This document shows positions 2,575 through 52,213 of a stretch of DNA of 64,000 nt, one piece after another. The notes under the pieces were generated by a model, which saw nothing but the letters and a program-made list of their open reading frames with translations, did not search any database and was not told the origin of the DNA. Source of the DNA: Sorghum bicolor (lineage: Eukaryota > Streptophyta > Magnoliopsida > Poales > Poaceae); the NCBI RefSeq assembly GCF_000003195.3, contig NC_012879.2, forward strand, positions 39,328,565 to 39,392,564. The letters are read 5' to 3'. Position 1 is the stretch's first letter. Each line of letters opens with the position of its first letter. The position numbers and the translations under genes are program-made.

Positions 2575-5500
2575 TGTAACACCCTAGGTGTTAAGCATGC
2601 ACTTAGTCTCACAAAATTATCCATAAGCATTCTCATCAAGCATAGCATTGCATGAACATGTCCATAATTCAAAGTGTGATTTTATATGCTTTATTTTATG
2701 TGAATTAAATCTGGTAAAAATATTATGCTTGCTTCTAAATTCTTGAATTGCGCAAATTAAGTTGAAATAAGTGTTAGAAGATTTATGAGTAATTTTGTGA
2801 TATTTTTAGAGCTGTAGAAATTGAGAAATTGATTTTATACAAAAATTCCCAAAATAGATTTATTTGAAAACCTATAACTAGTTTTGATTTGTATTTCAAA
2901 ATCTATTTGAAATTTGTGAATTCAACCTAAAGCAAAGTTGTAGGGTTTTTAATTTAGAACAACTTTTATTTTGGGGCGAAAAGGTGAAAATGAATTTAAA
3001 ATAGTCCAAATGAATTTAGAAAGTGTTTGAGAAAAGAAATTAAAAAAAAATGGAAAAGGGAAAGGGGGGCGCTAGCAGGCCGCGGCCTCACTTCTGGCCC
3101 GCTAGCCGAAGCTAGCCTAGCCCGCTCGCGCTCACCTCCTTCCCCGGGCCCGCGCCGTGCCCGTGCGCGGACGGCCGCGCCGTGCCGCCGTGGCGCGCCG
3201 GCAGAGCTCGGCCGCCGCGTGCCGAGCATGCGGCAGCCTGGACGCGCCCCGGTCGGCCACCAGGAGCGCCCGGCCGCATCCGCCTCTGCCTCCGCTGCCA
3301 TTTGCGCTCCTCCACTCACGCTCTCGCCCTTCGCTCGCCCGCGCGCCGCAGCTGCCGCTCCGCCGCGCGCCATCGTCGCCGACGACTTGGAGCTTCCCTC
3401 CCGGCCAGCTCCGGCCTCCTCCTTCCTCTCCGCGACCGCCAACAGCTCCACCTCGTCCTTCCGTGTCGCGTGCTCGCGCTCAACTGCGCTCGGTGAGTCC
3501 CCGCGTGCCCGGGAGAGCTCACCGGAGTTAGTCGGGACTCCGGCGATCCCTCGGTCCGCGCGGTTCTCCCCCTCTACTCCGCCATTTCTTGTGCTTTTAG
3601 GCGCGTTAGCTTCGCCTCGGCCTCGTGCACCTATTCCGGCCATTAGCGCACGCTCTACCGCCGCGTGGTGGCCGGACCGCGGCGAGCAGTGCCGCCGTTC
3701 CACCATGGCCGCTGGCGAGGTTGCTCCCGTCCGTTTCAGGCCGCGCAAGTAGGTTCGCTGAGTTCGCCTTGAGCAGTAGAACGCGTAGAGCCACTTGGTT
3801 CGCTGAGAGAGGACGTCGGCGGTGAGCTCCAGCTCGCCGGAGTCGCCCCCTCTCTGTGTTCTAGCCAGCGGGCCCGGCTGGCAGGCGGGTTCGCTCGTCA
3901 GTGGCCGCGGGTGCACTGCACCGGGTGCACCCAGCTGGTCCCGGGGGTGGATTTGAATTGGTTTTTTACAAAATATTTTCCAGAAAATAGTTTAAATGAT
4001 ATAAAATACATATCTTGAGATATATAGCTCCAAAAATGAAGAAATAAATTGTGGAGTGTTCCATAATCTCAGATCTATAGTTTGGTGTGGTTGCATGTCA
4101 TGTTTGAACAACTTTTCTGTACAAATATATTTAATCCATGTTTTTGTTGAAAGTTGGAAAATGCATAGTAATTAAAATATAGCTCAAAAAATATGAAACT
4201 TGTTTTGTTGGCTCTGCATAGATGATTAGGCTCTCGCAAAATATGTTACACATTATTTGCTGTATGAATTAATTTATGGTGATTTAAATGCTTGCATGGC
4301 AGTGGTTTATGATTTTTAATAAATAATTGGATCATGCAATTAATCTGGAAATTTTTGTGGGTGTTTCTTATGTTATTAAGTAAATTATAAAAATATGAAA
4401 TCTGTTGTTTGACACTTACACAACAGTAGGATGATTATACTTGCTTATATAGATTAATCTTGTGATTTTTGCAGCTCAAAATAAATGTCTAAATATTATG
4501 AGAAATTTATGGTAGACTTTACGATTGATTAGTAGTCTCCTGTAATTTTTGTGGAATTTATTGATAAACAGACATATATGCTACTATTGTAGGCCTAAAA
4601 GTGGATAGATGAAATATGAATTGTTATACATAGATTAAATAAAGTAAGAGGATGTTTGGTGTATCTTTGAAGCATCATGTGAGCTTGCTGGTTAACCTTG
4701 AAGGCAACTTGTAGAAGAGAATGTAATAGATGTTTAGTTCGATTACATGTTCTTGGATGATGTTGACTATCTTGTAAAAGTGACCACCTATATCATCTAT
4801 ACACCATGTCATAGTCATCGGTTACCCACTTGCATAAGCATTGCATCCCGGGCATCTCGCACTCCACTCATGAGCATACATACATCATACAAGCTCGCAG
4901 GAGAACGAGGTGGGACCCGAGGAGCCGGAGGAGACCTAGGAGCAGGAACCTCTGGGAGGACCGGAGCTCGGAGAAGAGCTACAGGAGTGCCCGGATCACA
5001 AACCGAGCACATTTGAGAAAGGCAAGCCCCGGAGCATTCTAAGTCTCCCTATTCTCGCTAACTTAAATGATATATTATGTTTGTTCTACTATGTTGCATT
5101 TAAGTGATAGGAATTGCTTGATACCGTTAATGCATAAGTACTCCTTGCTATCACCACTTGTTTCTCTACCTTGACCTATGTAGATAGGCATGGAGTCCAT
5201 GCTTAGTTTTCTTAGTCCGGTAGAAGTCGGGTGATTTCCATTCATCTACGAGATATAGGTGGACACCTGTTTGATTAGCTGTAATTGCTATGGGGAAGGA
5301 TAACCAAGTGTGGAAAGGAATTTGAGACCGGGCAGGGTCTTATGGTGGGTTGATCATAGTGCCCCTGCCTGTGTCGATTAAGGACCGATCGTTGACGGCC
5401 CTCTTGTCATGTTGAACGCATGCCCCACACTTAGCTGGAAGGATAAGTCGTTCCGACCGCGAAGCCTGAACAATATCCGGGCCAGGAGTGGAGCCGCCAT

Positions 5501-6526
5501 GTGCTGTATTGGTGATGGTTGAGGAGAACGACGAGGGCGCGGCGCGCAACCTTGGTATACCTTGGATACCTCGGTCATCGGAACGGTCCTCGGGTACTGG
5601 CGGTGCCTGCCGAACCCCCGATTTAGTCCTGGATAGTGTAACATGGTGATCTGTAGCTCACTTGATCAGTGAGTGTGGTTTGTGTGGGGAATAACTCGCC
5701 AGCTGGTCAGAAATCGATTCGAATCGCCATCGCTCCTTGATAGTGAGCACTTGACATGAGCCCTGTCCTCGTAGTAAGGACTATAGAACACTTGGGTTAT
5801 GATGATAATTGCTTTATGAATGCTATGATGAGGTACCATCATATTACTACACTTGTTTGTAATAGTACAGGTGCAAACCTAGTTAATAGGTAATGATATT
5901 ATCAAACTTGAGCTAATTAAAAGAAGAAAGGTCCGTAGACTATGTGTTAGTGGAACAGTGCTTTTAGGCAAAAAGTCTAAGCTACCCCACTATACAGCCT
6001 TCATGATCCTTGAAGAGTCTTTATTTTTGGTTTATGACGGGTAAGTCTAGCTGAGTACATTCTCGTACTCAGGGTTCTATTTCCCATGTTGTTTTGCAGA
6101 TGGTCAAATGTACTATGGTTATTGCATCCTCTGCTTGTACCCAGCCATGGGCGATGACTAGACCAAGGGCGATGGTTACTCTACCTTCTCTTTTGCTTTT
6201 GTGGGAATGACCGAACTATGGCACTGTACCAAACTGAATGTGTGTGTGTGTGTTACTTTCAAACTATGAAGCTTCCGCTACTTGAGAACTTGGTTTGTAA
6301 TATTTTTAAGTACTCCGATGTATTTGATGAATGTTGTAAACTGGATATAACTATGGATGGTAGCCGCTAAACTTATTACGATCTTGGTTGTATGTGTGAT
6401 ATGTTGTTTGAAATCCTTCGAGATTTCACGGACTACCAGGATTATATGGGCTTAAGCTCGATGGTTTGACTGTGCAAATGGTCACTATTAGGCTTAATCT
6501 CTTATAATTTGGGTGGTTCTGTTACA
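2575..6526 (+). repeat. F 5' LTR, 3.95 kb
   Basis: Starts TGTAACACC and ends TGTTACA, a perfect 7-bp terminal inverted repeat, and is followed by the primer site. The first 19 bases form a hairpin (see findings). It contains AT-rich flanks, a very GC-rich block at about 3060-3940, and a short (TG)n tract at 6239-6253. Long LTRs are typical of the Tekay/Del lineage. Long ORFs on both strands of the GC-rich block are composition artefacts. I could not place a TATA box with confidence. Confidence 0.85.
3060..3940. other. CpG-dense block within F LTR
   Basis: A sharply bounded GC- and CpG-rich segment in an otherwise AT-rich LTR. Equivalent blocks lie in the B LTRs (about 18960-19730, 37150-37920 and 56190-56960) and in the G LTR (about 13250-14040). 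Several GT-rich donor-like sites, such as CGGTGAGT at 3490-3497, occur inside. It may hold the promoter and leader start; that is inference. Confidence 0.5.
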
Positions 6527-6528
6527 GC

Positions 6529-6544
6529 TGGCATCGGAGCAAGG
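6529..6544 (+). other. Primer binding site, initiator tRNA-Met type (F)
   Basis: TGGCATCGGAGCAAGG, two bases after the LTR end. It resembles the TGGTATCAGAGC site complementary to plant initiator tRNA-Met, with two mismatches. Element B has TGGCATCAGAGC, so the T-to-C change is shared. Confidence 0.7.
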
Positions 6545-7351
6545 TTTAGCGAGTTACTGTTCATAAGTATGTTCCAAACTAAACTTAAACCGATTTAACA
6601 GAAGATTATTATTAATCAAATGGTAATCAAGGTGTCAAACTAAGTTTTTGGAAAACTATCTGGTGTGCCATGGTCATATCCTTTATGCCCAGTTAAGGAC
6701 TCTAAGGTGGCTAGTTAAGTACTGACTTGGGGGTTAATGCATCATATTTCTATTTCGTCGCTCATAAGGCGTGCAATAGTATGAGTACCATTCATTTGAG
6801 TGGTAATGTATGGATCAATTCTTCCTCTACGCCTCGGTAAGTGGGAGCTGTGAGAGCATGATCAGATACACTGCCGATCTAGGGAAGTGTTGTTAGGTGC
6901 TGTGTCATGCACACATGTTTGGTGTGCCTGGGAACAGTACCGCATGTTGGGAGATTCCGTCCTGAGAGGCGATGCCGTCACTAGGGCGATGATGTGGGTA
7001 GTAACACGTCATATGCATGGACGGGGTGTCTATGTGTGTGGGGTGTATAGCTTTAAATTCTTGTTCTGCATGTTCATACTATGGTTGGGCTGAAATGAGT
7101 TTTCTGCAGGTACACTAACCACGTTCCCACCTAGAACGCTAGTTACGTTATGAGAGAACGTTGTGTGCCACCGCATATACCGATTAGTGTTAACTTTTGT
7201 TTCTAGGTTTGTGAGATCATAAGTTCGTGCATGCATCATGTTCATTTCATATCATTGCTTACTTCCTCCCCTTAATTTAATCTGTCCCAATTCCAAATAA
7301 GATAATTAAAGATATTCCTCAATCTTACCTAAGGTATTCTCTTTGCAGCAG
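6545..7351 (+). other. F leader, no gene
   Basis: Untranslated region between primer site and ORF0. I see no supported coding sequence. It ends in a pyrimidine-rich tract and AG (ATTCTCTTTGCAG at 7336-7348) three bases before the ORF0 start codon, a good candidate 3' splice site. Confidence 0.6.
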
Positions 7352-8395
7352 ATGGGACGCACTAGGCTCACCGCTCGCAAGTCCACTGGTGGGTGGGCCC
7401 CTCGCCATCAGTTGGCAGCCAGGACCTCGCATCATAAGAGCAAGTTCCTGGAGGAGTTTGGGATGCCCACCTTGCTTTGGAGGGTGCTCAGTTCGATGGG
7501 GTATCTCAAAGGAAGGGAACCTCGCTACTATTGGAACAAGGAGTAGCTTGGTGACGGGACCCTGGTGGGGATCGAGGCAGTGGTCCCTACCAGTGGAGGT
7601 GACCCTGCCTGGGGCGGCTGGGTGTACGAGTCCCGAGGTACCACGCCTTTCCACGGTGCCTGCAGAGCAGCTTTTGCAGTTCTGAGGGACCTCATGGAGA
7701 GGTTTTCACAGGAGCTGGCCCACGCCTTCGCTGGGGTGTTTCCCCGGGGTGACCCCTACACTTTGGTGTGGGATCAGTCCAAGGTGAATGCTCTTGAGAG
7801 GAGTGCGGACGAGGACCAGCACAGTGACAGTTCAGCTATGAGTGCTATGTTCGCCTTGATGAAGACCTATGGGGGTCTGGAGCGTTGTTTGGGACGCTTG
7901 TCTGGGTCCCTTCTCACAATTCAGGAAGAGAAGCGCCAGCTGCAGTGTGAGTTTGACACTGAGGTTGAGAGGTTGCAGGCAGAGTTGGCCTGCATGACCC
8001 GAGAGAGTGATCAAGCGTTCCAGAAGAATAGTGAGCTGAGTCAGGACCTGCTCGCAATGATAGAGCAGAGGGACAGGGTGACTACTACTCACAGGAACTG
8101 TGAGCGCATGCTAGTTCATGTGCTTGGTCAGAGGAATGAAGCCTGGCACGAGGAGGACACCCTGAGGGCCCGACAGCTAGAGCTCGAGCAGCAGCTAGCT
8201 AATGCTGAGGAGTACAACGAGAACCTGCATGAGGAGATTCACCAGCTGCATAACCAGCTCCACCCTCACCACCTGCCTGGAGCAGCTGAGTTAGACTCTG
8301 AGGACGAGATGGATGAGGATCCAGAGTTGGAGGCAGCTGCTAGTGGAGACGAGGACGAGGAGGGCTCCGGCATGGACAGTGACCATAGCGAGTAA
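7352..8395 (+). pseudogene. ORF0 with histone H3-tail-like N terminus, upstream of gag (F)
   Basis: One open frame of 347 codons, broken only by an in-frame TAG at 7544-7546. Residues 2-31 resemble the histone H3 N-terminal tail: GRTRLTARKSTGG, then APR, then QLA. Against H3 positions 2-21, 16 of 20 residues agree. R2, T3, T6, A7, R8, K9, S10 and T11 are kept; K4 is R, K14 is W, K18 is H. Next comes a region shared with B's ORF0 (PTLLWRVLSS near residue 38; a GW-TP segment near 88; SAMSAM near 155), then a coiled coil (about 175-305) and a very acidic tail. I recognise no enzyme motif. A role in chromatin interaction is inference. The start follows a splice-acceptor-like CAG. Confidence 0.75.
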
Positions 8396-8715: not shown

Positions 8716-9866
8716 ATGGTGCAAACACGTGGCGGGGGTAACAGCAACCCCAGGCTTGGAGCAGGTACTTCCGGAAGTGGGGCTCAATGGAATGAGGAAA
8801 GAGCACCATCACTGCCACCACCACCGCCTCCTCCGTACACTGCGGACGTGTTTTCTCGCAGTTTCTGGGGAGCTAATGCAACATGGAGCAGATGCAGCGC
8901 AACATGGAAGAAGCCCTGTGCAATATCGCTGACAATACCCGCCGTGGGGATAACCAGGGCGGCCGTTAAGCCAATCAGTATAGCTCTTTCAAGGACTTCA
9001 TGGATACTAAACCACCTGTCTTTAAGGAGGCCTTAGAACCGCTCGAGGTAGATGAGTAGATCAACACCATGGAGCAAAAGTTCCGTCTTCTTCGGATGAC
9101 TGAAGAACATAAGGCTGAGTATGCAGCGCATCAGTTGTAGGGACCTGCTGGGATATGGTGGTCCCATCACCGTACCACCTACCTAGAGGGAACCCCTATC
9201 ACCTGAAACTGCTTCACCACTGCCTTATGAGGAAATTACATTCCTCCGGGTGTGGTGGAAATGAAGGTTGGGGAATTCATGAGGCTGTTCGAGGGAACGA
9301 AGTCTGTGAAGGAGTACCTACACGCTTTTAACAATCTTGCTCGTTACGCCCCCGAGTATGTGAACACGGAAGCCAAGAAGATCGCTAGTTTTCAGAGAGG
9401 CCTGATCCCAAAGATGCTGAAGACCATGGGTACAGGAGCCCGGGCTACCTTCAATGCTTACATCAGTGACTGTCTGACCTAGGATAACAATAACAACAAC
9501 TACAGTGCGTCCAAGTCTCGTAAGAGGGCTTTTGAAGCTGGGTCATCTCAGTCTAGGGCACCGGTGACAGGTCGACAGCAGTATCGTCCTCCTACCCCAG
9601 GTGCTAGGTTCTGACCGCCGCAGAGAAAGAACACCGGGCATCCAACGCAGCAAAAGCCGTACAAGGTAGCAAGAGCTCCCGCCAAGCCAAAGGCAATTCA
9701 AGCTGCAGCACCCGCCGTCAACAATATGACCAAAGGACCGTGCTACAACTGCCACAAAATGGGGCACTTTGCTAAGGAATGTCCCTACCCCAAGAGGCAG
9801 CAGACGACCTACCCAGCTCGAGTGCACCATACCTCGATAGAGTAGATCTCGGAAGGAGAACCGGTA
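8716..9866 (+). pseudogene. gag: gag pseudogene of F (Tekay-like)
   Basis: Starts at the ATG after GTGCAG with a proline-rich segment, then shifts frame before about 8880. The gag core follows ([19 protein letters not shown], then ARYAPEYV) and a CCHC zinc knuckle, CYNCHKMGHFAKEC, near 9739-9780. In-frame stops are at about 9056, 9138, 9205, 9227, 9480, 9613 and 9843; most are single-base changes from W, Q, R or E codons found in B gag. The knuckle keeps all four metal ligands, unlike B. The protein would have formed the nucleocapsid. No intact product is possible. Confidence 0.85.
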
Positions 9867-11609
9867 ATGGCTGGTATGTTTCCTGTCAACCAACATCTTG
9901 CAGTTGTTTTGTTTGATTCTGGATCATCACATTCATTCATGAGCCAAGCATTTGCACAAAAGCATAACCAAGCAATTACGGATCTGGGTTATGTCTATCG
10001 CATCAGCTCAGCAGGGGCAGATGTGTTGACAAATAGAGTGGTCCGAGGGGCAACCTTGGATATAAGTAACTGGGTGTTTCGAGTAAATCCGGTAGTCATG
10101 CCTGGGTTAGTTTTGGATGTTATCACGGGCATGAACTGGATGAAAGAGTGGGATACTGTCATAGATCTGGGAAGAGGGTGTTATCTCTTAGAGAACCTCA
10201 GGGCAGTGGATCTTTTCAAGTACCTCCGCCTCATCGGCTTGACTTTGCTAGCATCTGTTGTGCTACACATGTGGTTCCTCTACCACAGATCCCAGTAGTC
10301 TGTGAGTTTCCTGATGTTTTTCCTGAGGAATTGCCAGGACTTCCCCCAGATTGGGAAGTAGAGTTTGCAATAGAGTTGATACCACGTACAGCACCGATAT
10401 CTAGAAGGCCGTACCGAATGCCACCCAATGAACTCGCTGAGTTGAAGAATCAACTAAAAGAGTTACTGGATAAAGGGTTCATCCGGCCAAGTTCGTCGGA
10501 GTGGGGTTGTCCAGCGTTGTTTGTGAAAAAGAAGTATCAATCGCTGCGCATGTGCGTGGACTATCGTCCACTCAATGCGGTGACAATCAAAAATAAGTAT
10601 CCATTGCCAAGGATTGACATCTTGTTTGATCAGTTGTCCAAGGCCAAAGTGTTTTCCAAGATAGATTTGAGGTCCGGGTATCACTAAATCAAATCCGTCC
10701 ACAAGATATCCCAAAGACTGCTTTTTCCACCAGATATGGGTTGTATGAGTATCTTGTCATGTCCTTTGGGTTGACAAATGCTCCAGCATACTTCATGTAT
10801 CTGATGAACTCGGTCTTTATGCCAGAGTTAGACAAGTTTGTTGTGGTGTTCATCGATGACATTCTGGTTTATTCAGAGAATGAGCAAGATCACGCCGAGC
10901 ATCTAAGAGTCGTGCTGACACGACTGCGAGAGCATCAATTATATGCAAAGTTCAGCAAGTGTGAGTTTTGGCTGAAGAAAGTTCCTTTCCTAGGGCATAT
11001 TCTGTCTGAAGAAGGGATTGTTGTGGATCCGTCAAAGGTACAGGAAGTCATGGACTGGAAGGCACAAACTTCTGTCTCGGAAGTTCGAAGCTTTCTAGGT
11101 CTAGCCGGATAATACCGCCGTTTCATACCCGACTTCTCCAAGATTGCTAAGCTAATGACCAGTTTGCTACAAAAGGATCATAAGTTTGTCTAGACAGAAG
11201 GGTGTGAACTAGCCATCCGCACCTTACGAAAGTTGCTAACCACCGCCCCCGTTCTAGCGCAACCCAATACCGAGAAGCCTTTTGATGTGTTTTGTGACGC
11301 ATCGAAAAGTGGTTTAGGATGTGTGCTGATGCAAGACGGCGAGTAATAGCTTATGCTTCATGACAGCTGAGAGAGCACGAAGTCAACTACCCAACTCATG
11401 ACCTCGAGTTAGCAGTAGTGGTGCACGCTCTGAAGATTTGGAGGCACTATTTGCTGGGAAACAAGTGTCATATCTACACAGATCATAAAAGTCCGAAATA
11501 CATCTTCACTCAGTCTGAGCTTGATATGAGGCAACGAAGATGGTTAGAGCTGATCAAGGACTACGAACTGGAAGTCCATTATCATCCAGGCAAGGCTAAT
11601 GTGGTCAGC
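9867..11609 (+). pseudogene. pol: pol pseudogene of F: protease, RT, RNase H; integrase lost
   Basis: Protease lies at about 9880-10150, active site F-D-S-G-S-S, in the same frame as gag. The frame then shifts near 10150-10200 into the RT. RT motifs include [32 protein letters not shown] and FVVVFIDD (10841-10864). Stops at 10685, 11110, 11192 and 11361 and further frameshifts near 10690 and 11343 break it. RNase H is seen as FDVFCDAS and [13 protein letters not shown]. Homology to B pol stops abruptly after HPGKANVV near 11609. Integrase and chromodomain are gone. Confidence 0.85.
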
Positions 11610-18900: not shown

Positions 18901-20426
18901 GAATCACCACATTTGGATCTCTAAAACTCCAGATATGAATTTTACAAAAACAGCTTTGGCTCTGCACAACAGTGAACCAGATGGGGGTGACACAGAGAGG
19001 CTGACATCCGGGACCCACGCGTCAGTGAGACGGGGACAGGGGAGATGCTCGTCGCCGTCGAAGCTCGACGACGACGAGTTCTTGGCCGGATCCAAGGGCA
19101 CCTACGTGTTCCTCTCATTAAGGCGACTCTGTTGAACTACTTTACCCGCGCTCTACTGGACTCTAGGGTGCTCGCCGTCGGGAATGGCGGAGCGGCGGCG
19201 CTGCGCGGCGATACGCCGGCGGATCCAGGTAACGGCGACGCGGTAGAGGTTGCGGACGAGCAAGAGCAGCTCAAGGCGAAGCTAAAGGAAGAAGAATCAC
19301 GGCCAGAGCTGAACCAGAGAGGTCTGGCCACGTTGCCGGTGATCTCTGTGAACTCCGGCGAGGTGAAGCTCGCGACGGAGATGACAATGTGACCTCACCG
19401 GTGCTCGGCTAAGGGAATGGAGTGGACGTCGAGGTAGAGGACGTCAAGGCGGAGCTCTGGGCGGGCTGGCTTGGCCGGAGACACGGTGGAACGGCCGGAG
19501 AAGCTCGCCGAAGCGCGGCGGAGCTCACCGAGGCGACGGCGGAGCGAAATGTGCTGCGCTGAGCGAGTGGAGAGCGCGTCTGAGGCGCCCACTCGGTGCT
19601 TGGCGACTTGGAGACGCCGTGGGAGCTGACAGGCGGGGTCGTCGATGGCGTACGGTCGACAGGTGGCCGGACACGCGGCGGCGGGCGGCGTCTGTCCAAA
19701 CTGAATCGGGCGATTCAGTCGCCATGGCCAGTGACTGAATCCCGAAGTTCGTCGACGTTTTACTCTCAGCTCACTCGGTGGTTTTGGCTGGGATTTGATC
19801 CTCTGGATAGAGCTACATGAGTTCTACAACTTTGATTACAAGATCAAAGCCTAACTCGGTCTGGATTTCAAACTACATAGATCCAAACAACACTACCTCG
19901 AAACTGCGTGACTCAATACTTAGCCAAATTTGGCTAAGTATGGAATCAGCCCTGATTTTTGGCTTGTGAGCAGTTTGTGGATGTGTTATAAGCTTTTTCA
20001 TAAAAATTCATCAACATAACTTTTGTAGCTTATGAAATTCTCTACAACTTTGTTTCAGGTGTCAAAGACATGCAAGGTCTCTAACGCCAGTTTCATAAAA
20101 CATCTTTGAAAGGAGGTCTAGGGGGTCAATTAAGCCATTCTAGGTTTAACCCTAACCTAGGGGCATTTTTGGCCAAAACCTTCAACATGAACTTTGTTCC
20201 AAATGATATTCTAAACATGATTGAAGTATTTTGGAAGACAATGTACACTTGTTTGCATTGGTTACCCCTTATAGTCACACAATTCAAGTCACACAAGCAA
20301 TTCAATCATACATGGTATACATAAGATGACATGTGATCCTGATAGATGCTTATGAATGAGCACGATGATGCTTGTGTTGATGCAATGCTCATGGTTAACA
20401 TTCAAGCTAACACTAGGAGTGTTACA
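15919..20426 (-). repeat. B LTR1 (outer 3' LTR), 4508 bp
   Basis: On the minus strand it starts TGTAACACT and ends TGTTACA. It is nearly identical to LTR2 and LTR3, with scattered base changes. A CpG-dense block lies at about 18960-19730. Small ORFs on either strand (for example near 16659-16982 and 19045-19392) recur in all three LTRs only because the LTRs are copies. Confidence 0.9.
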
Positions 20427-20440
20427 GCCCTCCCCCCTTA
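20427..20440 (-). other. Polypurine tract of B copy 1, inside the pol reading frame
   Basis: AAGGGGGGAGGGC on the minus strand, directly before the LTR start. It primes plus-strand DNA synthesis. In this copy it is also translated: the pol frame runs through it and stops at the TAA inside the first bases of the LTR. Confidence 0.85.
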
Positions 20441-20443
20441 CAA

Positions 20444-20462
20444 AAATCTCGTCCCGAGATTT
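20444..20462 (-). other. Hairpin just upstream of the polypurine tract (B copy 1)
   Basis: Perfect 8-bp stem AAATCTCG/CGAGATTT with loop GGA on the minus strand, about four bases before the tract. It recurs at 38633-38651. A hairpin with a similar CTC-GGGAC-GAG core precedes the tract of Athila-like C and D. Confidence 0.7.
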
Positions 20463-23040
20463 GAAAGATGTACAACTTTTCGTAGAATGAGGGATAAGTT
20501 ACTTGTAAATAGTCTTCCCTTTCCCAAGTGGCATCTCTCTCATTTTGACGGTTCCACAAAATTCTAAAAAGTTTGATCACTTTTCCACGAGTAACTCGTT
20601 CTTTGACATCAAGAACTTGTACAGGCTTTTCTTCATAAGATAGATCTGACTGCAACTTGATATCTCTTGATTCAACTCTCTCTTCGGGCACACGAAGACA
20701 CTTCTTAAGTTGAGATACGTGGAATTCAGGGAAAATAGCTCTCATTTCGGGAGGTAGTTGCACTTTGTAAGCTACCTTACCACTCTTCTCAATGATTTGG
20801 TAGGGACCCACATACCTAGGGGCAAGCTTTTTTTTAACACCAAAGCGATTTACTCCTTTCATGGGCGATACCTTTAGGTACACAAAGTCACCTAATTCGA
20901 ACTCGATTGGCCTTCTTCTTTGGTCAGCATAGCTTTTCTGCCTAGCTTGGGCGGCTCTCATGTGTTGTTGGATAACGAGAACTTGCTTTTCGGCTTCCTT
21001 GACAAAGTCAATTCCGTAGTACCTCCTTTCACCAGGTTCGACCCAGTTTAAAGGAGTTCCACATTTGCGGCCATACAAAGCTTCGAAAGGAGCCATTTGG
21101 ATACTCTCTTGATAACTATTGTTGTATGGCCGCACCCTTGGAAGATATAACACAGGCCCTCAACATATCCTCTAGAATTTGATTCACACGCTCAGTTTGA
21201 CCGGAGGTTTGGGGATGATAGGCTGAACTGCGAACCAATTTTGTACCAAGGAGTGAATGCAGATGCTCCCAAAAGCAGGCAGTGAACTGAGGACCTCTAT
21301 CAGAAATAATAGTGCAAGGCACTCCGTGCAATTTAACTATCTGAGAGAAGTACAACTCAGCATAGTCGGTTGGCCAGTATGTAGAGTGTACAGGAATAAA
21401 ATGAGCTGACTTGGTTAAACGGTCAACAATCACCCATATAGAATTGTGTCCTTTTTGAGTAAGGGGAAGTCCAACAATGAAATCCATGCTGATTTCTTCC
21501 CACTTCCAACCTGGAACCGACAAGGGTTGCAATAAACCTGCAGGTTTGAGGTGAACTGCCTTCACCCTGCAGCAAGTATCACACCTAGCAACATAAGCTG
21601 CTATCTCTTTCTTCATTTTGGTCCACCAGAAACGAGGTCTCAAGTCTTGGTACATTTTGCTACTGCCCGGATGAATGGACAACTTGGAAGAATGAGCTTC
21701 TTCTAAGATCTTGTTGCGTAGGTCACGGTCTTTGGGTACAACTAGTCGATCGTCAAACCACAGTACACCTTTCTCATCTACCTTGAAATGCTTGGTGTCT
21801 TGCTCTTGCATTTTTCTTTTTATATGATAAATACCAGGATCAGATTTTTGGAGCTCTATGATTTGACTTTCTAACGAGCAGCTGACTATGATGTTGTGTA
21901 AGACCACAGGATGCAATAAATTGAAGCCTTCCTCTAGGAGAGGTCTAACATGTTGTTTCCGACTGAGAGCATCAGCTACAACATTGGCTTTGCCTGGATG
22001 ATAGTGTACTTCTAAATTGTAGTCTTTTATCAATTCTAGCCATCTTCTTTGTCTCATATTCAGCTCGGGTTGTGTAAAGATATATTTGAGGCTCTTATGG
22101 TCAGTGTAGATGTGACATAGATTACCCAACAGATAATGTCTCTAGAGCTTCAATGCATGTACAACTGCTGCTAACTCTAGATCATGAGTAGGGTAGTTGG
22201 CTTCATGTTTCCTCAGCTGCCGAGAAGCATAGGCAATAACTCGGCCTTCTTGCATAAGTACACAACCTAGGCCAGTGCCAGATGCATCACAAAAGACATC
22301 AAATGGCTTTTCAATGTCAGGCTGTGCCAGAACAGGAGCGGTTGTCAGCAAATGGCGTAAAGTGGTGAAAGCAACTTCACACTCCTCGGACCACACAAAC
22401 TTCACATCCTTTTGCAGTAGCTTGGTCATAGGCTTAGCTATTTTGGAGAAGTCTGGAATAAAATGCCGATAATATCCAGCTAGGCCGAGAAAACTCCGGA
22501 CTTCATGCACTGAAGTCGGGGCCTTCCAGTCTAGAACCTCTTGCACCTTTGACGGGTCAACAGAAATACCCTCTTCGGATAAAATATGGCCTAAGAAAGT
22601 CACTTTCTTCAGCCAAAACTCACACTTGCTGAACTTGGCATAGAGCTGATGTTCTCGCAATCTAGTGAGTACAATCCGAAGGTGCTTCTCATGTTCTTGT
22701 GCATTTTCAGAATACACCAATATATCATCGATGAACACCACCACAAACTTATCCAGTTCAGGCATGAACACCGAATTCATCAGGTACATGAAATGAGCAG
22801 GGGCATTAGTCAGACCAAAGGACATGACTAAATACTCATACAACCCATACCTGGTAGAGAAAGCCGTTTTAGGAATGTCTTCAGGTCGGATCTTGATTTG
22901 ATGATACCCAGATCGCAGATCAATTTTGGAGAATACTTTGGCCTTAGCTAATTGATCAAATAGGATATCAATGCGAGGCAGTGGGTACTTGTTTTTGACA
23001 GTCACGACATTCAGCGGACGATAGTCTACACACATACGTA

Positions 23041-32316: not shown

Positions 32317-33171
32317 TTAATGATTAAAAGGGGCTGGATGTGGAATAGGATTTATGATATTATTTAAGCGGTGGACATCTAATTGCAGCTCAGCAATCCT
32401 AGTAATCAGCTCTTCCTCTCTCATTTCAGCATGGAACAAGGCTCTAACTCTAGCAGCTTCTCTATTTTCAGCCAAGCGCAAAGCCTCATCTCTCTCTCTA
32501 GTCATTTGCATCATGCAGGCTTGTGCTTCATTGCGCTCTCTAACTGCGTTCGCAACTTGATTGCGGCGGGCTTGCAAAGCGGTGTGATAGTTTTGGATTT
32601 CAGCTTGTGCATCCATAAAAGCCTTGCGGTGCTTGCGCACTCTCTTGCGCAGTTTGCGCTGCCCAACCTGAGCTTGCTGAAGCGCTAGCATGGCATCTAT
32701 GTAGGTGTCCTGGCGCACATAGTACAGCTTAAGTATCGCTAGCATGGCACTCATGGCAGGGCTAGAACTATACCCTAGCAAGGTTTCTCTCATCTCTAAA
32801 GACTCATTCCCAACCTGGGACACAAATGTGTCAGTCACACTCACTCTGGGAACGGATCCCGCTGGGCCATTCACCAGCTCATCACCATGCTCTTGGCAAA
32901 TCTCTAGCAAAACCTCCAGGGCTGCTACCTGGGCACCCTCCCAAGGAGTTTGGCCATCACAGTCAACTAACCAACCTAGCCAGTGTGGGTTATTCAGACA
33001 AGTGGGAACTGTAATTTGAACATCTACCCAAGGTAAGGCCCCTGCATGCTCAGCCTCGGTCCAAGTGTACTTAGGTGGTTCCTCATATCCAACTGAACTT
33101 AGCACCCTCCACAACAAAGTAGGAGTGCCAAACATGTCCAGGAAAGTCTCACTCGCGTGCGGGGCTGCCAT
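32317..33171 (-). pseudogene. B copy 1 ORF0 (coiled-coil protein upstream of gag)
   Basis: 284 codons from the ATG at 33171. Homologous to F ORF0 beyond the H3-like tail: PTLLWRVLSSVGY near residue 16, a GW-TPWEG region near 65-80, and SPAMSAML near 135. A charged coiled coil (about 150-265) follows. It ends early at a TAA where copy 2 has GAA, losing the acidic tail of about 22 residues. It has no H3-like N-terminus. The ATG is preceded by TTTCTATAG, a possible splice acceptor. Function unknown. Confidence 0.7.
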
Positions 33172-51292: not shown

Positions 51293-52213
51293 CTACATAT
51301 CTTCCTCGGATTCTCCATTAGAAACGATGCCATCATCCTGATCTTCCTCACTAGGAGCTTCTTCATGATTAAAAGGGGCTGGATGTGGAATAGGATTTAT
51401 GATATTATTTAAGCGGTGGACATCTAATTGCAGCTCAGCAATCCTAGTAATCAGCTCTTCCTCTCTCATTTCAGCATGGAACAAGGCTCTAACTCTAGCA
51501 GCTTCTCTATTTTCAGCCAAGCGCAAAGCCTCATCTCTCTCTCTAGTCATTTGCATCATGCGGGCTTGTGCTTCATTGCGCTCTCTAACTGCGTTCGCAA
51601 CTTGATTGCGGCGGGCTTGCAAAGCGGTGTGATAGTTTTGGATTTCAGCTTGTGCATCCATAAAAGCCTTGCGGTGCTTGCGCACTCTCTTGCGCAGTTT
51701 GCGCTGCCCAACCTGAGCTTGCTGAAGCGCTAGCATGGCATCTATGTAGGTGTCCTGGCGCACATAGTACAGCTTAAGTACCGCTAGCATGGCACTCATG
51801 GCAGGGCTAGAACTATACCCTAGCAAGGTTTCTCTCATCTCTAAAGACTCATTCCCAACCTGGGACACAAATGTGTCAGTCACACTCACTCTGGGAACGG
51901 ATCCCGCTGGGCCATTCACCAGCTCATCACCATGCTCTTGGCAAATCTCTAGCAAAACCTCCAGGGCTGCTACCTGGGCACCCTCCCAAGGAGTTTGGCC
52001 ATCACAGTCAACTAACCAACCTAGCCAGTGTGGGTTATTCAGACAAGGGGGAACTGTAATTTGAACATCTACCCAAGGTAAGGCCCCTGCATGCTCAGCC
52101 TCGGTCCAAGTGTACTTAGGTGGTTCCTCATATCCAACTGAACTTAGCACCCTCCACAACAAAGGAGTGCCAAACATGTCCAGGAAAGTCTCACTCGCGT
52201 GCGGGGCTGCCAT
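51293..52213 (-). CDS. B copy 2 ORF0, complete coiled-coil protein with acidic tail
   Basis: 306 residues from ATG 52213, the fullest version in the window. Order: a conserved N-terminal region (LLWRVLSSVGY near residue 17, WLGWLVDCDGQTPWEG near 60-75, ALEVLLEICQEHGDEL, SPAMSAML near 135), a basic stretch (RKLRKRVRKHRK near 165), a long heptad-rich helix to about residue 262, and an acidic end (EEAPSEEDQDDG). It lacks the H3-like tail of F. It sits between primer site and gag, 403 bp before gag, in the same orientation. The ATG follows TTTCTACAA, where copy 1 has an AG. Function unknown; I do not recognise a named domain. Confidence 0.72.
   Translation of the reverse strand: MAAPHASETFLDMFGTPLLWRVLSSVGYEEPPKYTWTEAEHAGALPWVDVQITVPPCLNNPHWLGWLVDCDGQTPWEGAQVAALEVLLEICQEHGDELVNGPAGSVPRVSVTDTFVSQVGNESLEMRETLLGYSSSPAMSAMLAVLKLYYVRQDTYIDAMLALQQAQVGQRKLRKRVRKHRKAFMDAQAEIQNYHTALQARRNQVANAVRERNEAQARMMQMTRERDEALRLAENREAARVRALFHAEMREEELITRIAELQLDVHRLNNIINPIPHPAPFNHEEAPSEEDQDDGIVSNGESEEDM

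Follow-up and report, generated by a model that had tools for sequence, protein, structure and literature searches.

A conserved histone H3 tail mimic at the N terminus of ORF0 in a Tekay/Retrosat2-type retrotransposon lineage of sorghum, and its possible action as an H3K9 decoy

Why should a protein encoded by a retrotransposon begin like histone H3? The question is raised by element F in the 64-kb stretch of the Sorghum bicolor genome analysed here (the window), in which the reading frame upstream of gag, ORF0, opens with MGRTRLTARKSTGGWAPRHQLA as codons 1-22. Codons 2-22 read GRTRLTARKSTGGWAPRHQLA. Compared with H3 residues 2-21, 16 of 20 positions were identical; the mismatches were K4R, Q5L, K14W and K18H, and A1 was replaced by Gly. 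A residue count thus reproduced the identity reported in the first-pass annotation, including K4R and the loss of K14 and K18, and the tail lies, as stated there, at the exact start of the protein, with the H3 register running from residue 1 behind the ATG at 7352. In a six-frame scan of the window, the tail scored 78 (BLOSUM62), whereas the next best 26-residue stretch scored 29. A phmmer search of PDB chains with ORF0 residues 1-64 placed H3 at the top (E 6.5e-5), and all 60 matches listed, of 130, were H3 or H3-like entries. The binomial estimate for at least 16 of 20 identities at one position, with 7.5% per site, was ~4e-15. The match is therefore very unlikely to be accidental, as had been supposed. 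On these grounds, and given the exact N-terminal register and the recurrence described below, the idea that a short basic peptide resembles H3 by chance or convergence was rejected, with a practically negligible probability. ORF0 is a non-histone protein carrying an extended histone-tail match and is, in its sequence, a histone mimic.

Table 1. Features of element F and of the related element E in the window.
Feature	Position	Strand	Basis and remarks
5' LTR of element F	2575..6526	+	Putative, 3,952 bp; starts TGTAACACCC, ends TGTTACA; end directly before primer binding site
Primer-binding-site-like TGGCATCGGAGC	6529..6540	+	Read in sequence
Polypyrimidine tract and AG, 3' splice acceptor-like, abutting ORF0 ATG	7335..7351	+	Acceptor use presumed
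ORF0 Met and 21 residues, histone H3 tail mimic	7352..7417	+	Sequence, six-frame scan, phmmer
Linker, ORF0 residues 23-37	7418..7462	+	
dsRBD-fold domain (predicted), residues 38-118	7463..7705	+	AF2 models of homologue P0013 and E-type ORF0; VIA-align matches
In-frame TAG, codon 65; window ORF0 copy broken	7544..7546	+	
Coiled coil (predicted), about residues 161-300	7832..8251	+	AF2 helix 160-296 in homologue P0013; alignment
Acidic C-terminus and stop of ORF0	8252..8395	+	
gag-PR-RT-RNaseH remains of element F	8716..11609	+	tblastn with element E gag and pol
Tail-less ORF0, element E copy 1	32317..33171	-	
Tail-less ORF0, element E copy 2	51293..52213	-	Also AF2 model

Element F is a Ty3/gypsy chromovirus of the Tekay/Retrosat2 type. 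The sense ORF0 (7352-8395) lies ahead of gag (from 8716), the putative LTR of 3,952 bp exceeds 3 kb, and an F-type copy with an open ORF0 (L034, with the integrase end in L098) has an integrase C-terminal chromodomain with the TWE motif. The chromodomain of the lineage was read in these copies, F itself breaking off upstream of that region, where its matches to the related element E stop after RNase H (11609). Another window element (20422-21096) likewise carries a Tekay-like chromodomain (Pfam Chromo, E 0.0064, 16.8 bits, under the cut-off of 25.1), in agreement with the earlier assignment of F to a chromodomain-bearing lineage. The 5' LTR of F is putative, its second LTR being absent from the window; its start, TGTAACACCC, differs by one mismatch from the Retrosat2/RIRE8 terminus, TGTCACACCC. 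It is followed by TGGCATCGGAGC (Table 1), which we take to be of the initiator tRNA-Met type. The ORF0 ATG lies immediately 3' of the splice-acceptor-like tattctctttgcagcag, and the gag ATG of F likewise directly follows an AG, in gtgcag. In the two window copies of E, ctatag precedes the ORF0 ATG in one and ctacaa in the other; since the former is a tail-less copy with an acceptor-like site, the acceptor at the ATG is possibly older than the tail. Stretches of 5-9.5 kb, namely chromovirus E copies and their neighbours, are repeated at ~98% identity in nested or duplicated order over window positions 15911-57656. The first-pass annotation did not include the TAG at codon 65, the acceptor-like site at the ATG, the probable capture of an exon, the predicted dsRBD fold, the existence of a sister clade without the tail or the alternative of a histone-type import signal.

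Behind the tail, ORF0 is predicted to consist of a dsRBD-fold domain and a coiled coil. The AF2 model of the tail-bearing homologue P0013 comprised a low-confidence, disordered-like tail, a dsRBD fold with the alpha-beta-beta-beta-alpha topology, and a long helix; the model of E-type ORF0 also gave the dsRBD fold. The RNA-contact motif of dsRBDs is the basic KKxAK at helix 2. It was not found in any aligned ORF0 row, where the site reads, for example, TPFHGAS, TPKEGAG or TPWEGAQ, and canonical dsRNA binding by the middle domain is disfavoured by its absence. When the ORF0 sequence profile was searched against the PDB, 29 weak matches appeared, with no dsRBD entry by name among them. As for a histone fold after the tail, no Pfam histone model matched P0001 at E up to 1, and the model of the tail-bearing homologue shows the dsRBD fold and coiled coil in that place. 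ORF0 is known from Retrosat2, RIRE3 and RIRE8 and is described as confined to grasses and fast-evolving, with hydrolase-type enzymes proposed by homology modelling (Gao et al. 2012, PMC3485330). The concrete architecture predicted here would supersede such enzyme assignments.

The tail is not peculiar to the window copy. An ORF0 protein search returned 41 homologues, and two profile searches returned 70 and 614 (best 120 of 614). Counting as a tail at least 10 of 22 identities from a Met within the first 40 residues, we found it in 41 of 214 proteins (the window copy and 40 database proteins), which belong to two subfamilies; those inspected among the proteins below the threshold lacked the N-terminus or were E-type. 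Scans of viral-contig and genome-contig collections found no relatives. In the 41 protein tails, G13 and L20 were invariant, K9 and S10 were each kept in 40, K4 in 37, R2 and A15 in 33, R23 in 32 and R8 in 30. Thr was present at position 11 in 13 tails and Ala in 26, and Q5 remained in only one. K14 and K18 were kept in none, with R14 in 39 and H18 in 40, and identity to H3 ended at residue 21. Every loss of R8 was to Cys or His, as were nearly all losses of R2, R8 and R17, a pattern that would be expected from the decay of methylated CpG.

Two tail-bearing architectures were observed, a long one (326-347 aa if complete, with the dsRBD region) and a short one (~190-210 aa, tail then coil). In a tree of the dsRBD region, from which the tail was excluded, the six rows showing a tail fell into one clade (100/100) and spanned its first split, with P0067 (99/97) on one side and P0001, P0013, P0056, P0054 and P0094 (99/99) on the other. 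The clade holds 14 further rows that start too late in the recorded protein to show the tail region, and the short subfamily, being without the region used, stands outside the tree. The E clade occupies the opposite side (100/100), and none of its 15 visible N-termini (13 proteins and the two window copies; the count omits P0100, an odd-start row missed by the pattern) has the tail. The tail was more alike than the rest of ORF0 in 14 of 15 long-long pairs and in 35 of 36 long-short pairs, the latter drawn on 18 short proteins above 150 aa, and less alike in five of five hand-picked short-short pairs; shared ancestry and the choice of rows with a recognisable tail favour the tail in these counts. 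We must also note an annotated protein attributed to Miscanthus floridulus (P0042), a single chain with an integrase SH3 domain and, at its C-terminus, the coiled coil of ORF0; it may be a fusion of gene models or of elements.

In the sorghum genome itself, 78 ORF0 loci were examined, counting the window copy, and 74 of them have the tail. The search with a tail-containing query, in which 150 of 2167 candidates were scored and all 150 aligned from query residue 1 or 2, supplied 48 of these 74 loci and biases the set towards intact tails. A coil-based search, with a short protein query whose matches fell nearly all in the coil, found the tail in 26 of 30 loci; in the other four, the ORF0 match begins only at nt 53, 169, 262 or 362, and one has masked bases. 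T3 was kept in all 74 genome tails, K9, S10 and T11 in 73 each, R8 in 71, R2 in 70 and A1 in 69. Residue 4 was Arg, not Lys, in 72, and residue 14 was Arg in 48, Trp in 19, Gln in six and Leu in one, the window copy being atypical in its G1 and W14. Two outcomes named in the first-pass annotation as speaking against its reading, a tail confined to one copy by recent fusion with a histone gene and a lack of conservation at R8-K9-S10, were both contradicted by these counts. A one-copy fusion is rejected by the 40 database proteins and the 74 genome loci. The H3 tail mimic of ORF0 is real, old, abundant and conserved. Many of the genomic copies have open frames, and an AG lies directly ahead of the start codon position in all 74 tail loci. 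One copy (L010, C4:27028537-27028989) has lost most of the dsRBD region by an in-frame internal deletion, leaving tail, coil and acidic end in 173 aa, and may serve as a model of how the short type arose.

Selection was compared among 23 intact copies of 342-347 codons, excluding L017 and L078, which have longer open frames. Outside the tail, dN/dS was 0.14 (253 non-independent pairs), and this part of ORF0 is a selected protein under strong purifying selection. Within it, the acidic C-terminus (residues 301-347) had a dS of 0.27, compared with 0.137 for residues 23-347. The tail gave a dN/dS of 1.08, because its dS was only 0.034 (0.137 elsewhere) and replacement changes occur at residues 14, 18 and 19. 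With synonymous divergence some fourfold lower in the tail than in the remainder of ORF0, an RNA signal may cover the start region, and within this genome, where the tail core is nearly fixed, a nucleotide-level signal may account for part of the tail conservation. Taken to its end, this would make the tail a relic: the captured exon supplied a start codon and an exon edge, and mainly the RNA around the splice acceptor is conserved, not the H3-like peptide. The acceptor-like site immediately before the ATG, the dispensability of the tail in the sister clade and third-position diversity over the 74 copies (0.044 in the tail vs 0.147 in the linker and 0.166 in the dsRBD region) would agree with this. 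However, those copies are skewed to intact tails by the tail-containing query, and the difference shrinks when only the 23 intact copies are compared (tail 0.030, residues 1-13 0.049, vs 0.073 and 0.069 elsewhere). Moreover, it is residues 5, 11, 14, 18 and 19 that differ between subfamilies, the peptide core being retained, and a constraint on the RNA gives no reason for K9 and S10 to be favoured. We consider a relic of this kind distinctly unlikely.

The H3 genes of the host bear on the origin of the tail. Eight were matched unbroken over residues 1-135 and several others exon by exon. In three intron-containing genes (L087, L088 and L089), GTTCGT, GTTTGT or GTAACA comes directly after AAG, the 23rd codon, and the downstream exons also match, so that residue 23 is the probable end of their first coding exon. 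In L089/L093, the H3 ATG lies directly 3' of gcag. The end of H3 identity in ORF0 at residue 21, close to this exon end, together with R23 and the acceptor-like AG before both ATGs, suggests capture of a first coding exon. The tail is almost certainly of H3 origin, and its probable source is a first coding exon among the H3 genes of the host, captured long ago. Codon agreement with the ORF0 tail was 6-8 of 16 for the three canonical intron-containing genes, 3-5 of 16 for the eight intronless ones, and 1/14, 3/12 and 3/15 for three divergent H3-like genes. For the four H3 genes that were tested, agreement did not exceed the expectation from ORF0 codon usage (P 0.10-0.38; best 8/16, P 0.10), so the codons single out no donor, and either the capture is old or synonymous sites are saturated. 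The divergent H3-like host genes L095, L096 and L097 (on C1 and C2), with tails such as MARTKSTARNSTGG and MARTKCWARRSTGG and an ATG right after AAG, are perhaps H3 variants or decaying copies.

What might such a tail do? In histone H3, K14 and K18 are acetylation sites in active chromatin. We propose that a grass Tekay-type lineage (Retrosat2/RIRE3/RIRE8-like) placed a host H3 exon, the first coding one, at the start of ORF0; the donor gene was perhaps of the intron-containing H3.3 type. The ORF0 mRNA probably arises by splicing to the acceptor that abuts the ATG. Removal of the Met would expose an H3-like N-terminus with A1, R2, T3, T6, A7, R8, K9 and S10 mostly retained and with K4 retained or replaced by Arg, and the loss of K14 and K18 would make these sites non-acetylatable. 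By multimerising, the coiled coil would present several tails together on the dsRBD-fold core. Such a soluble decoy would have its K9 methylated by, or its tail bound to, the H3K9 machinery (SUVH writers; SHH1, AGDP1/ADCP1 and CMT readers), and the machinery thus engaged would silence the element less effectively. From the sequence evidence, we regard a decoy of exon-capture origin that counteracts H3K9-based silencing as the most likely action of the tail, with slightly less than even confidence.

AGDP1 is described as contacting H3 A1, R2, K4, A7, R8 and K9me2, with no specific contact to T3, Q5, T6 and S10, and SHH1 as accommodating K4me0 and K9me2 (PMC6208443). In ORF0, the AGDP1-contact residues are kept (except K4, which is Arg in this genome), Q5 is nearly always lost, and K14 and K18 are gone, which suggests a bait for H3K9 writers or readers. 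AGDP1 alone is insufficient as an explanation, since T3, T6 and S10 are kept though it does not contact them. Several observations argue against a decoy: K4, an AGDP1 contact, is Arg in 72 of 74 genome tails; T11 is Ala in 26 of 41 protein tails; the tail dN/dS in this genome is 1.08, with residues 14, 18 and 19 varying; and the hand-picked short-short pairs are less alike in the tail than elsewhere. In addition, R14 and R23 are equally compatible with an import signal of the histone type.

This last point leads to the main alternative, which we consider rather unlikely: the tail would act as a histone-type nuclear localisation signal, so that ORF0, perhaps with RNA or VLP components, is imported by H3 importins and the mimicry serves transport, not silencing. 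Within H3 1-28, Kap123 is reported to read K14 and K23, positions 13 and 15 being occupied by small residues, and K14R to have a minor effect (PMC5677370). The protein tails keep G13 (41/41), R14 (39/41), A15 (33/41) and R23 (32/41), and R23 is present in all 23 intact genome copies, as import would predict. However, the Kap123 data are from yeast, residue 14 is Trp or Gln in 25 of 74 genome copies, including five of the 23 intact ones, and import leaves the conservation of residues 1-10, above all K9 and S10, unexplained; the nearly fixed 6-10 block speaks against import alone. Returning to the H3K9 decoy, a tentative extension, which we put well below an even chance, is that the stolen exon serves as an H3K9 bait, multivalent and proof against acetylation, and is coupled to a fold like that of Dicer-partner dsRBDs. 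ORF0 could then interfere with silencing at two levels, transcriptional (H3K9/DNA methylation) and RNA-based.

The earlier interpretation is supported in that the tail is real and N-terminal, and the tail recurs beyond the window copy; its suggestion that the tail could bind the chromodomain of its own element is not supported. The chromodomains of the related window element and of the F-type copy keep only the middle cage aromatic (judged by eye against HP1), and in plant group II chromodomains the first cage residue, and usually also the third, is reported to be missing (PMC6317226, PMC3350952). Binding to the own chromodomain is disfavoured by this incomplete aromatic cage. The same incompleteness would favour a different role, in which host HP1-like or other reader proteins hold the methylated tail and thereby guide ORF0, together with the integration complex, to heterochromatin, the tail standing in for the cage-less chromodomain; the partners of group II chromodomains are given as not identified in PMC6317226. 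Against such docking, no sign was seen of ORF0 travelling with integrase, and the tail-less window relative has the same type of chromodomain. We judge it very unlikely.

Histone mimicry is known in viruses, influenza NS1 being a histone mimic, and the mimic motifs of NS1 and of G9a/GLP are only a few residues long. In contrast, the ORF0 tail extends over ~21 residues in exact N-terminal register and was apparently taken from a host gene by a transposon. With the automethylated motifs of G9a/GLP, ORF0 shares an H3-like lysine context in a non-histone protein (PMC9768651). VANC of the Arabidopsis VANDAL elements is a transposon-encoded anti-silencing protein, a role that is proposed here for ORF0; as described, VANC recognises DNA motifs of related elements, with no histone tail mentioned in the portions of these sources drawn on here (PMC10398659, PMC5735166, PMC13317346). 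Host genes captured by plant transposons (PMC13317346) are a parallel in the captured coding sequence proposed for ORF0, and the additional ORFs of plant LTR elements (PMC7264820) in the presence of an extra ORF; the word 'histone' does not occur in the main text of either source. The closest relatives by description are Retrosat2, RIRE3 and RIRE8, grass elements that, like F, have an extra sense ORF ahead of gag-pol and LTRs of about 3 kb or more (PMC3485330). They were likened to F by this description and by the LTR terminus, not by ORF0 sequences, and the hydrolase proposals for their ORF0 differ from the H3-tail, dsRBD-fold and coiled-coil protein predicted for F; 'histone' has no occurrence in the text of that report. 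Full-text searches of the open-licence literature, read at the level of titles and abstract starts, revealed no retrotransposon protein that begins with a host H3 tail. If the tail does act as bait, it might help to explain why large grass LTR elements are so successful, it would separate H3-tail functions in a natural setting (K9 kept, K14 and K18 gone), and it would give transposons a testable means of answering H3K9 methylation. Histone mimics have been described among histone enzymes, as have anti-silencing proteins among DNA transposons; the H3 tail reported here belongs to a retrotransposon protein.
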